Positions 35,248 to 41,897 of a DNA stretch of 58,715 nucleotides are shown here, piece by piece (the first letter of the stretch is position 1; every line of letters starts with the position of its first letter). The stretch lies in contig JAIOPN010000020.1 of NCBI GenBank assembly GCA_021413865.1, positions 1-58,715 on the forward strand, written 5' to 3'. The stretch comes from Planctomycetota bacterium (GTDB taxonomy: Bacteria > Planctomycetota > Phycisphaerae > Phycisphaerales > Phycisphaeraceae). The translations under genes were made by a program, and so were the position numbers. The notes beneath the pieces were generated by a model. That model had not been told where the DNA came from, did no database searches, and saw only the letters and a program-made list of their open reading frames with translations.

Positions 35248-35257
35248 GGCAGGCCAG

Positions 35258-35283
35258 AAGATAACTAACTCCCGTCCCTATTT
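35258..35283 (-). repeat. 26-bp motif shared with 393-418, upstream of RT
   Basis: On the minus strand this reads aaatagggacgggagttagt and onward, matching 393-418 at 23 of 26 positions. It marks the left side of the AT-rich reverse transcriptase insert and may be a junction scar. Confidence 0.5.
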
Positions 35284-35316
35284 CTTATCCGCCATATCCT
35301 GCACGAGTGATCTGAC

Positions 35317-36924
35317 ATGCCCATAAATTTAGCAACGACAACTTTGGACTGGGCATTAAAACATATTGAGTTGCTCGGAGATACAGACATCTTCTCCATG
35401 CCTTTTGAATTTCAGGCAATTCGATATTTTTGGACTAGGCGTCCTCCGGGTGGCATTAAGCAAAGAGTGGTGTTTCAAGATTGGCTTTCGTCGCAGGACT
35501 TGCTGTCCTGGACACCTCGCACACCCCGGCGATGCCTGTCTCCCAAGCACCAGTTTGGATTTCGAGCATCTACTCAACTTGACCCTTTGGATTCCCTTCT
35601 TTATACGGGTTTGATTTACGAACTTGGCTACGACCTCGAAGCGGTTCGGGTTTCTGCTGCCAAGAATATCGTTCACAGTTATCGCTTCGCGCCGGACGCC
35701 CACGGACGGATGTTCGATGCTAGTTTTGGCTTCGATTCCTTTCGAAGGCGTTCAATCGAACTCGCTGAAGCAAACAAAGAAGGGTGGATCGTTACCGCAG
35801 ACATCGCCGACTTCTACCCCCGAATTTACTCACATCCACTAGAGAATGCCCTCCATGATGCCACGACAAAAACTGATCATGTCAACGTACTCAAGACCAT
35901 GCTCTCCAAGTTAAACCACTCGGTGTCGTACGGCATCCCTGTTGGACCAGCGGCATCGCGGCTTTTGGCAGAGGTGGCGATTGCGGACGTGGACGCGGCG
36001 CTGATGAGCGAAGGATTTGCGCACACTCGTTTTGTTGATGACTTTCGTATTTTTTGCAATACAGAACGGGATGCTTACTCAGCACTTGCGTTTCTTGCCA
36101 ACGCACTCTTTGAGCACCATGGCTTGACGTTGCAGCAGCACAAGACGTTTATCGAAACCGCGAAATCTTTTCTGGCGACCAATGCTGAATCTGAGGCCGA
36201 CAAAGAGCGGCTTTCGCTGACTGAAAAATTCCAAAATATCTTAGACAAGATGGGTATTAGCAGTTGGTATGAAGATATCGACTATGATGATCTCGATCCG
36301 GAATTACAAAAGGCAATTGACGCTCTCAATTTAAAAGAAATTCTTGAAGAACAAATTGCGGCTGTCGGGACAATCGATGTGGCGGTAGTCCGGTTTGCTC
36401 TTCGCCGTCTAGCACAGCTTGACGATGACTCCGCGACCGAGTTAGTACTCAGCAACATGATGCGTTTGTATCCTGTGTTCACGGATGCACTGATCTATCT
36501 TACAGCTATTCGCTCGCTCGACGCAGAAGACAAGCATGCGATTGGCAGGAAACTCTTGGACTTGATCGAAGGCGATGTGGTCGGGCACTTGGAGTACCAC
36601 CGTGCGTGGATTCTCTCGACGTTCACCAATGACGCAGACTGGAACAATGCCGATCGTTTTGTCCCCATCTATAATAAGTATGCTGATCCGTTCACCAGAC
36701 GAGAAACAATCCTGTCACTAGGCCGTGCTAAGAAGGCGGAGTGGTTTAAGACACGAAAACGAGATTTTGGCATTTTTGAGGTCTGGCAGAGGCGCGCGTT
36801 CCTCGCAGCGGCAAGCGCTCTACCAGGCGATGAACCCAAGCACTGGTATCGTTCGTTAGCCCCACAGCTAGACGAACTAGAAAAAGCCATTGTCGACTGG
36901 GCGTTACAGAATCCATTTGCTTGA
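35317..36924 (+). CDS. Reverse transcriptase of the Abi/UG (defence-associated) type
   Basis: A protein of 535 residues. Polymerase motif A is TADIADFYPRIYSH (160-173; Asp162 catalytic), motif B GIPVGPAASRLLAE (206-219), motif C FVDDF (239-243; Asp241 and Asp242), and motif D near HGLTLQQHKT (268-277). Residues about 310-535 are purely helical with no RNase H, maturase or endonuclease signature, like the helical-repeat C-terminal region of AbiA/AbiK and UG/DRT reverse transcriptases, which protect cells from phage. Motif B lacks the group II (PQG) and DGR (SQ) forms. The gene is far more AT-rich than its neighbours, a sign of acquisition. Only 69 bases separate it from pssA, so a long upstream template RNA is unlikely. 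The exact group cannot be assigned by eye. Confidence 0.9.
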   Translation: MPINLATTTLDWALKHIELLGDTDIFSMPFEFQAIRYFWTRRPPGGIKQRVVFQDWLSSQDLLSWTPRTPRRCLSPKHQFGFRASTQLDPLDSLLYTGLIYELGYDLEAVRVSAAKNIVHSYRFAPDAHGRMFDASFGFDSFRRRSIELAEANKEGWIVTADIADFYPRIYSHPLENALHDATTKTDHVNVLKTMLSKLNHSVSYGIPVGPAASRLLAEVAIADVDAALMSEGFAHTRFVDDFRIFCNTERDAYSALAFLANALFEHHGLTLQQHKTFIETAKSFLATNAESEADKERLSLTEKFQNILDKMGISSWYEDIDYDDLDPELQKAIDALNLKEILEEQIAAVGTIDVAVVRFALRRLAQLDDDSATELVLSNMMRLYPVFTDALIYLTAIRSLDAEDKHAIGRKLLDLIEGDVVGHLEYHRAWILSTFTNDADWNNADRFVPIYNKYADPFTRRETILSLGRAKKAEWFKTRKRDFGIFEVWQRRAFLAAASALPGDEPKHWYRSLAPQLDELEKAIVDWALQNPFA

Positions 36925-37033
36925 CCGCAGCAAACAGGCTTGGATGGGACCGTGGTTAGACCACTCAGCGCTCGCACACAAGACCCGTTTTATCTTTTGG
37001 CCTTGACGGGCTGAGAAGCGATTGAGCCCGCGC

Positions 37034-37111
37034 AGCCCCGTCATGCCAACGCGGGGCTTCCGCTCTTGGCGATCCGCGATCACGCAAACCCCGCATTGGC
37101 ATGACGGGGCT
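37034..37111. repeat. Inverted repeat AGCCCCGTCATGCCAACGCGG
   Basis: Arms 37034-37058 and 37087-37111 are nearly complementary (agccccgtcatgccaacgcg against its mirror), about 25 bases each. It is part of the palindrome-rich gap downstream of the RT gene. Confidence 0.8.
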
Positions 37112-37130
37112 CCCATGTTTCCATACCGAC

Positions 37131-37222
37131 GGGTGCCACTGGTCGATGTCCTCATCGACCGGTGCTCTTGAACGTATCCCTGAAGGCACTGGTCCGGCGG
37201 GTACGCCGGACCAGTGGCACCC
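37131..37222. repeat. REPIN-like doublet of two inverted REP hairpins
   Basis: The left unit (37131-37165) has hairpin GGTCGATG/CATCGACC. The right unit (37187-37222) has a perfect 13-base hairpin, CACTGGTCCGGCG/CGCCGGACCAGTG. The outer ends gggtgccactggtc and gaccagtggcaccc are inverted copies of each other, so the two units face each other as in REPINs mobilised by RAYT transposases. It also lies at the 3' end of the beta-helix gene on the minus strand and may terminate it. Confidence 0.75.
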
Positions 37223-40524: not shown

Positions 40525-41430
40525 ATGGCGGCGAAAGAACGGTTCGACCTGACGGGCAAGACGGCGCTGGTGACCGGCGGCAGCCGCGGCATCGGCCGGG
40601 CGATCGCGCTGGCGCTGGCGGAGCACGGGGCGAACGTCGCCATCGTGTATCACTCAGCCACCGAGGCCGCGGAAGAGGTCGTCGCCAAGATCAAGAAGCT
40701 GGGCCGCAAGGCGTGGGCGTTCAAGCAGGACCTGGGCCAGATCGAGGCGCTGCACGGCCTGGCGGACACCGCGTGGAAGACCTGCGGCAAGATCGACGTG
40801 CTGGTGAACAACGCGGGCATGGCCTACCTGCAACGGTTCAACGAGATCGGCCTCGAGCATTTCCGCCGCGTCCTTGCTGTCAATCTGGAAGCGCCGTTCT
40901 TCCTCACACAGCGCATCGCCGAGCACATGATCGCGCACGGGATCAAAGGGCGAGTGATCAACCTCTCCTCGAAGAACGGCCTGGTCGCCGAGGCGGGCCT
41001 GGCGCACTACAACGCCTCCAAGGGGGGCATCGAGCTGCTCACGCAATCGCTCGCCATCGAGCTGGGCGAGCACGGCATCACCGTCAACACCATCGCGCCG
41101 GGCATCATCATCACCGAGATCGGCGGCGACTTCGAGATCGATATCGAGGGCTTCTGCAAGTACTACTACGAGCACATCCCGCTGGAGCACCGCTTCGGCG
41201 AGGTCGAGGAGTGCGTCGGGGCGGCGGTCTATTTCGCATCCACCGCCGGGTCGTACACGACGGGGACGCGCATCCTGATGGACGGCGGCGTGCTCAGCGA
41301 GCAGGTGCCGCGCATGCAGTACATGAAGCGATATACGAACACCATCACCGGCAAGCCCGGACCGATGAAGACCAGCTACAAACCCAAGAAGAAACAGAAA
41401 CTCGCCGACGTGGCGAAGGGGAAGAAGTGA
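40525..41430 (+). CDS. Short-chain dehydrogenase/reductase with Lys-rich tail
   Basis: A protein of 301 residues. The cofactor loop is TGGSRGIGRA (about 15-24); NNAG is at about 95, and the catalytic Ser and YNASKGG at about 155-170. The family-typical end MDGGVLSEQ is followed by an extra tail of about 45 residues ending YKPKKKQKLADVAKGKK, unusual for SDRs. The start ATG follows GAGGAAC. The stop overlaps the next start (TGATG), so it is translationally coupled with the RidA gene. Probably oxidises a sugar acid or polyol. Confidence 0.88.
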   Translation: MAAKERFDLTGKTALVTGGSRGIGRAIALALAEHGANVAIVYHSATEAAEEVVAKIKKLGRKAWAFKQDLGQIEALHGLADTAWKTCGKIDVLVNNAGMAYLQRFNEIGLEHFRRVLAVNLEAPFFLTQRIAEHMIAHGIKGRVINLSSKNGLVAEAGLAHYNASKGGIELLTQSLAIELGEHGITVNTIAPGIIITEIGGDFEIDIEGFCKYYYEHIPLEHRFGEVEECVGAAVYFASTAGSYTTGTRILMDGGVLSEQVPRMQYMKRYTNTITGKPGPMKTSYKPKKKQKLADVAKGKK

Positions 41431-41897
41431 TGAGCGAGCGTGACAAGGCGTTGGAGGCGGCGGGCTATCCACTCGACAAGGTGAAGTACACCCCCGGCGG
41501 GCTGATCGAGCCGCTCTCGGTGGACTGCACCACGATGTACCTCTCCGGGCAGGTGCCGTTCGACGGCGATGAGCTGAAATATGTCGGCAAGGTTCCCTCG
41601 AAGGTGAGCGTCGCCGACGCCACCAAGGCGGCGGAGCTCTGCGCGGCCAACCTGCTGCGCGTGGCGAGGAAATACCTGGGCACGCTCGACCGTGTCGATC
41701 GCGTGCTGCGGATCACGGGGTACGTCAACGCCGACCCGGCCTTCACCGATTGCCACCTGGTGATCAACGGCGCGACGAACCTGATCCGCGCCGTGCTGAA
41801 AGAGCCCGGCCGTCACGCCCGCAGCGCCCTGGGCATGGGCCAGTTGCCCCTGGGCGTAAGCGTCGAAGTCGAGATGATCCTGAAAATCAAACCGTGA
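41430..41897 (+). CDS. RidA/YjgF family protein
   Basis: A protein of 155 residues. The C-terminal part has the RidA signature AVLKEPGRHARSALGMGQLPLGVSVEVE (split here as AVLKEPGRHARSALG plus QLPLGVSVEVE), including the Arg that binds the carboxylate of the substrate and the invariant Glu. The family hydrolyses reactive enamines or imines or acts on related small molecules. Its place between a dehydrogenase and an aldolase suggests detoxifying or processing a pathway intermediate. The start overlaps the SDR stop. Confidence 0.88.
   Translation: MSERDKALEAAGYPLDKVKYTPGGLIEPLSVDCTTMYLSGQVPFDGDELKYVGKVPSKVSVADATKAAELCAANLLRVARKYLGTLDRVDRVLRITGYVNADPAFTDCHLVINGATNLIRAVLKEPGRHARSALGMGQLPLGVSVEVEMILKIKP

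Follow-up and report, generated by a model that had tools for sequence, protein, structure and literature searches.

According to the available parts of two papers, DRT8 as a family confers phage resistance (PMC13213688, PMC13314766); the former counts it among the named DRTs without an established mechanism, the latter calls its mechanism unresolved, and we found none in the literature searched. A PD-(D/E)XK domain is part of DRT8 as one paper describes it (PMC12596737), and a review lists the PNP/SLOG protein Cap17 with it (PMC10952713). DRT4/UG15 and DRT6 are given as single-gene systems (PMC13213688). AbiK and Abi-P2 are made of two lobes, one RT-like and the other a helical solenoid; for AbiK, the residue reported to prime DNA synthesis is Tyr44, which lies in a mobile loop at the N terminus, and for Abi-P2 it is Tyr61, at the equivalent place (PMC9508834). 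AbiA, which has a HEPN domain, is reported to prime on Tyr298/Tyr303, in the flexible linker between its RT and helical parts (PMC11077055). Other priming residues are given for DRT9 (probably C-terminal tyrosines, PMC12483538), DRT10 (a serine or a tyrosine, PMC12632851) and DRT1 (Ser402, PMC13275509). As for the template, an alphaRep domain is described as usual in UG RTs of Class 1, the studied members of which are template-independent, and Class 2 systems (DRT2, DRT9, DRT10) as copying a co-encoded structured RNA (PMC13174585). DRT1 and DRT5, of Class 3, are likewise described as template-free (PMC13275509).

The reverse transcriptase (RT) gene analyzed here lies in a 58.7 kb stretch of planctomycete DNA (the window, by which we mean this whole stretch). 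Its open reading frame starts with ATG, with an in-frame stop just 5' at 35308 (Table 1). Among the PADLOC profiles, the best match was Drt8, near full length (E 4.3e-157, residues 6-532 aligned to positions 3-492 of a 493-position model); the runner-up was UG21 (E 2.2e-43), and Drt4 and Drt6, which represent different groups, reached 8e-31 and 3e-26. We take Drt8 to be group UG7, our sole ground here being a gap in PADLOC's UG names. A previous examination of the letters alone, called below the sequence-only reading, had pointed out RT motifs A (DIADFY, residue 162), B (GIPVGPAASRLLAE, residue 206) and C (FVDDF, residue 239); all are present in the 535-residue frame, and all 22 rows of alignment A1, the window RT counted, have D162, D241 and D242. 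On profile evidence, the protein is an intact RT of the known antiphage group UG7/DRT8. The possibly undescribed subgroup proposed by the sequence-only reading is thereby ruled out, because the Drt8 profile matches over nearly the full length and at an E value of 4.3e-157, against 2.2e-43 for UG21. Pfam, searched up to an E value of 1, recognized RVT_1 alone (residues 133-280, E 4e-13) and no RNase H, maturase or nuclease domain, in agreement with the same reading; no HEPN domain was found either, a difference from AbiA.

Table 1. Features of the RT locus, in window coordinates
Feature	Position	Strand	Basis
UG7/DRT8-type RT gene, stand-alone, 535 aa	35317..36924	+	Open reading frame, Drt8 profile, G+C
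RT-like domain, fingers and palm, about residues 1-290	35317..36186	+	Predicted model; Pfam RVT_1; fold matches
Catalytic Asp162, motif A DIADFY	35800..35802	+	Invariant in alignment A1
Catalytic Asp241-Asp242, motif C FVDDF	36037..36042	+	Invariant in alignment A1
RT-helical linker, about residues 291-327, low confidence at 292-299 and 313-320	36187..36297	+	Predicted model
Tyr318, candidate priming residue	36268..36270	+	Alignments; parallel with AbiA (PMC11077055, available part)
Tyr323, second candidate priming residue	36283..36285	+	Tyr-Tyr spacing; parallel with AbiA (available part)
Helical solenoid, predicted HEAT/alphaRep-like, about residues 328-535	36298..36921	+	Predicted model; weak fold matches
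Palindromic dispersed host repeat, outside the system	37030..37114	.	Repeat search of the genome
Second dispersed palindromic host repeat, outside the system	37127..37222	.	Repeat search of the genome

An AlphaFold2 model of the window RT, built from 15 sequences, has a mean pLDDT of 85.6 and a pTM of 0.86. Past residue 281 it contains helices only, as the sequence-only reading had noted for the C-terminal region. The best 11 PDB matches found with Foldseek are all DRT4, UG15, DRT6, AbiK or Abi-P2, at modest TM-scores (0.42-0.59 by query length). With VIA-align, the fold of DRT6 (9wy8: Z 20.2, rmsd 4.3, 450 residues aligned, model 8-525) and that of DRT4 (9vdo: Z 18.3, rmsd 4.7, 442 aligned) match over nearly the whole length, the alignments starting at residue 7-8 and ending at 525-530, and AbiK follows (7r07: Z 16.0, rmsd 5.5, 421 aligned). 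The highest Z values (up to 22.4) belong to group II and DGR RTs; where these rank above DRT4, 233-271 residues are aligned, and the alignments mostly stop by residue 357, three DGR rows going on to 430-459. In BFVD, almost all of the 50 matches listed for the model are either RTs or RNA polymerases of viruses.

The C-terminal domain (residues 321-535) is modeled at a pLDDT of 91.8. Searched alone with Foldseek, it retrieves artificial alphaRep/HEAT-like proteins first, weakly (best E 0.018), and VIA-align gives Z up to 12.8, values that helical repeats commonly reach. Its sequence profile found no solved relative in the PDB (four unrelated matches, E 0.19 or worse), and no Abi or DRT chain is among the listed fold matches, which does not show that such chains fail to match. 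The likeness to AbiK that the sequence-only reading wished to see checked therefore holds for the whole model, but did not emerge among the matches listed for the C-terminal domain alone. The predicted model shows two lobes, as in AbiK and Abi-P2: an RT domain and a HEAT/alphaRep-like solenoid, an arrangement characteristic of Class 1 UG/Abi RTs. This class is read from the predicted architecture, with its weak C-terminal-only match, and not from the published scheme's placing of UG7.

The partner gene was then considered. In six loci of our collection (L021, L022, L044, L056, L061 and L062), which are those scanned from the nuclease clade described below, the PADLOC RTasPDDEXK model matches the gene downstream of the RT. 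A tree was built from 38 UG7 RTs, all of them Drt8-profile matches at E <= 1e-60; L020 (located at the same place as L049), L004 (a UG21 RT), L064 and L071 (near-copies) and L072 (partial) were left out of both the tree and the partner count. A profile made from ten nuclease genes was run in six frames over the whole window and the available stretch of the other loci, including L004 and L072, neither of which gave a match. It matches 11 of the 38 loci, and the other 27 UG7 loci are without the partner, less surely so for L040, because only 676 bp are available downstream of its RT. The 11 nuclease loci make up exactly one clade (support 100/99) and stay on one side of a branch in 200/200 bootstrap trees. 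On this tree, nuclease presence and absence require one change, against an average of 9.6-9.7 for shuffled labels, and none of 500 shuffles was as good.

The window RT falls outside this clade, where it pairs with the Pandoraea RT (99/97). The six-frame profile scan found no PD-(D/E)XK gene in the 58.7 kb window, and RTasPDDEXK has 0 matches in the window's own genome (95% complete) at E values up to 10, a looseness at which 5/14 control genomes match; no hidden nuclease partner was thus found in either. The locus resembles DRT8 in its RT, which matches the Drt8 profile near full length, and differs from it in having no nuclease, either beside the RT or found in the genome. Since the RT is outside the nuclease clade and its genome is without the nuclease, the window gene is to be classed as a UG7 RT standing alone rather than as a complete RT-nuclease DRT8, which supports the single-gene system envisaged by the sequence-only reading.

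The gene stands out by its composition, being, as that reading had remarked, far more AT-rich than its neighbors: its G+C content is 49.4%, against 66% for the whole window, with 51.5% at third positions against 92.6% in both neighbors, and it forms the lowest-G+C 1.6 kb of the 58.7 kb. When the window RT was searched in 61 genomes (its own and 60 relatives, none from the same genus), matches were found in 7 at E <= 1e-3, its own counted; the sole strong match besides its own genome was in one relative (G009, 28% identity, E 4e-50). Because of its G+C content (49% against 66%) and the single strong match in 60 relatives, the gene was probably acquired by horizontal transfer. RTs matching the Drt8 profile were found in all the sets searched, the centre genome being counted wherever positive: 4/392 genomes in the window's own phylum (own counted, E <= 1e-40) and, at E <= 1e-60, 4/398 in the phylum and 8/299 in the family of the Pandoraea genome, 5/296 in the phylum of the Lewinella genome and 5/148 in that of the Ignavibacteriae genome, four of these five being common to the Lewinella-phylum set. 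None of 14 control genomes was positive.

Among 72,556 plasmid records, the window protein has 20 matches, 6 of them covering at least 80% of its length; 50,697 phage records gave no match (E 1e-5). In viral contigs, the window RT alone as query found nothing, and alignment A1 as query found 37 loci, 15 of which (L058-L072) are UG7-like by match length. The closest relative found is an RT in Pandoraea capi (44-45% identity). In locus L002 (2146-6019), this closest relative is preceded, at a distance of 220 bp, by a Lamassu LmuB gene of the same strand.

Around the window RT, the upstream gene encodes a CDP-alcohol phosphatidyltransferase, consistent with the pssA named by the sequence-only reading, and the downstream neighbor, on the opposite strand, encodes a beta-helix protein with a CBM9-like domain. 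By their Pfam names the nearest genes are metabolic or housekeeping, except for three with no name or a sorting motif only. PADLOC was run on 43 of the 44 called genes, the RT included (the short frame 41376-41816 was left out); among the best 25 of 62 families, the only one besides RT families is PD-Lambda-2_A (gene 602-922), a match 34 kb from the RT among those listed. No defense family was found in the genes adjoining the RT, among the listed PADLOC matches or with Pfam. With nearby genes that are metabolic or housekeeping, and PD-Lambda-2_A as the only other listed match, the surroundings of the RT do not make an obvious defense island. The small gene concerned (PADLOC E 3e-21) looks HigB-like by eye and is followed by a sequence that looks HigA-like (602-1347); the pair lies in the less G+C-rich first kilobase of the window.

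Neighbors are diverse at other UG7 loci. A gene with NERD and topoisomerase zinc-ribbon domains overlaps a UG7 RT outside the nuclease clade (L039, 7566-8345). A 317-aa gene, restriction-nuclease-like by eye and without a PADLOC match (E 0.001), begins 34 bp downstream of another (L067, 3964-4917). On an Aminobacter plasmid, a UG7 RT is followed 209-251 bp further on by a second gene annotated "reverse transcriptase family protein" (L019, 4992-8677). In L012 and L038, the RT has an N-terminal extension that resembles, by eye, the start of two downstream neighbors, and which we would presume to be, possibly, an effector-associated adaptor domain. UG7 partners thus vary, given the second RT, the NERD gene and the other genes beside some RTs, and the PNP/SLOG protein listed with DRT8.

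How, then, should the window RT be understood? That it might be a group II intron, retron or DGR enzyme is suggested by the RT domain fold that all of these have in common, but we practically discard it. Seven NCBIfam models match the protein (Drt4, group II maturase RT, Drt3a, Drt5, Drt3b, retron St85 and Drt2; no Drt8 model is among these seven), all far under their own cutoffs: the group II RT/maturase model scores 56.6 bits for a cutoff of 300, and St85, the sole retron model matching, 31.7 bits for 235. By contrast, the Drt8 match is near full length, and the C-terminal part is a predicted solenoid with no maturase domain. The profile-HMM placement that the sequence-only reading had recommended thus led to Drt8, and to neither group II introns nor retrons, and the Abi/UG/DRT character it had assigned to the gene was borne out. 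The protein could also be a DRT8 RT deprived of its PD-(D/E)XK nuclease, and either decaying or in need of a nuclease in trans. The description of DRT8 with such a domain (PMC12596737, available part) and the absence of the partner from a 95%-complete genome would agree with such a loss. However, 27 of the 38 UG7 loci do without the partner and the tree needs a single change between having and lacking it, while the window RT, itself among the 27, has an intact reading frame and conserved catalytic residues; we therefore find this loss unlikely.

Another question is whether, like the Class 2 DRTs as described (PMC13174585, available part), the RT has as its template a structured RNA encoded along with it, a reading to which the 307 nt downstream of the gene, with their palindromes, lend some appeal. 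The palindrome cluster noticed by the sequence-only reading is real (37030-37222), but it consists of two dispersed host repeat families side by side, for which the genome has 70 matches once self, partial copies and both strands are included, and it is neither specific to the RT nor part of the system. Rfam has no match on the window at gathering thresholds, the predicted folds of the flanks (35248-35316 and 36925-37033) are no stronger than those of shuffled sequence, and a promoter/terminator scan showed nothing exceeding shuffles. Comparison of related loci points the same way: similarity between the stand-alone loci L049 and L050 (79.5% nucleotide identity) runs from position -6 to one base beyond the stop codon, L048 shows the same coding-confined similarity to both, and in L021/L022 (73%) the stretch between the RT start and the end of the nuclease gene is all that matches. 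L062 and L066 match over both coding sequences (17 to 2364) and have further matches elsewhere; the nearest of these, 66 nt long and some 110 nt past the nuclease gene, would favor an RNA. The pairs L042/L019 and L062/L063 are uninformative in this respect because similarity continues into neighboring genes, and the window and L002 match inside the RT only, being too distant for their flanks to be judged. Altogether, Rfam, folding and similarity revealed no linked RNA in the window or related loci, in a survey run without a Class 2 positive control, and with that qualification the RNA-assisted system of the sequence-only reading gained no support; we regard a copied RNA as quite improbable. 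Still less probable, in our opinion, is that the RT works only with a neighboring or host effector recruited by its DNA product. Other UG7 RTs do adjoin NERD (L039), Lamassu LmuB (L002) or OLD/AAA-like (L058) genes, and Cap17 is listed with DRT8 (PMC10952713, available part), but the genes next to the window RT are without a defense family and the other listed PADLOC match is 34 kb away.

If DNA synthesis by the window RT is primed by the protein itself, two tyrosines deserve attention. Tyr318 and Tyr323 sit in the interdomain loop, where model confidence is low at 292-299 and 313-320. Tyr318 is conserved in at least 90% of the rows in an alignment of 22, but in 22/36 in another, from which L003 and L055 were also left out. 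A tyrosine is present in the 300-328 stretch of 29/30 UG7 representatives (<60% identity) against 18.8 expected (P about 1e-5), for a range picked after the alignment was seen and a test that treats rows as independent; in the wider 288-335 stretch the figures are 30/30 against 24.5 (P 0.002). The Tyr-Tyr spacing of 5, as in Y318/Y323, occurs in only 3/36 linkers. By analogy with AbiA, whose priming tyrosines are placed in the same way, Tyr318, and also Tyr323, are candidate priming residues; the location differs from that in AbiK and Abi-P2, where the reported residues lie in or correspond to the N-terminal loop.

We consider it fairly probable that the window RT is a horizontally acquired, single-gene UG7 RT of Class 1 architecture, which would act in triggered phage defense by untemplated DNA synthesis. 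Its most likely mechanism is borrowed from Class 1 relatives. The protein would assemble into an oligomer via its RT and alphaRep lobes; a hydroxyl in the flexible linker between its two domains, that of Tyr318 or perhaps Tyr323, would prime synthesis, and the DNA would be extended without a nucleic acid template. What triggers it may be a protein of the phage or a change in the nucleotide pool, and the DNA attached to the RT would then block either the replication of the phage or the cell. Antiphage activity of this particular gene is suggested by its relatives.

The window RT thus belongs to a known group, of which it is an ordinary member that can now be placed well, and has its stand-alone form. 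More tentatively, and with somewhat less than even confidence, we propose that stand-alone UG7 RTs may be complete single-gene immune polymerases, primed on a linker tyrosine like AbiA, and that the DRT8 nuclease may be a separate effector that joined one lineage; descriptions of DRT8 as RT plus nuclease would for that reason fit one clade only (11/38 loci in this sample). Y318/Y323 offer a concrete mutational test of priming, and the split of UG7 into a nuclease-bearing clade and nuclease-less lineages is a natural experiment, in which what the polymerase does alone may be compared with what the nuclease adds.
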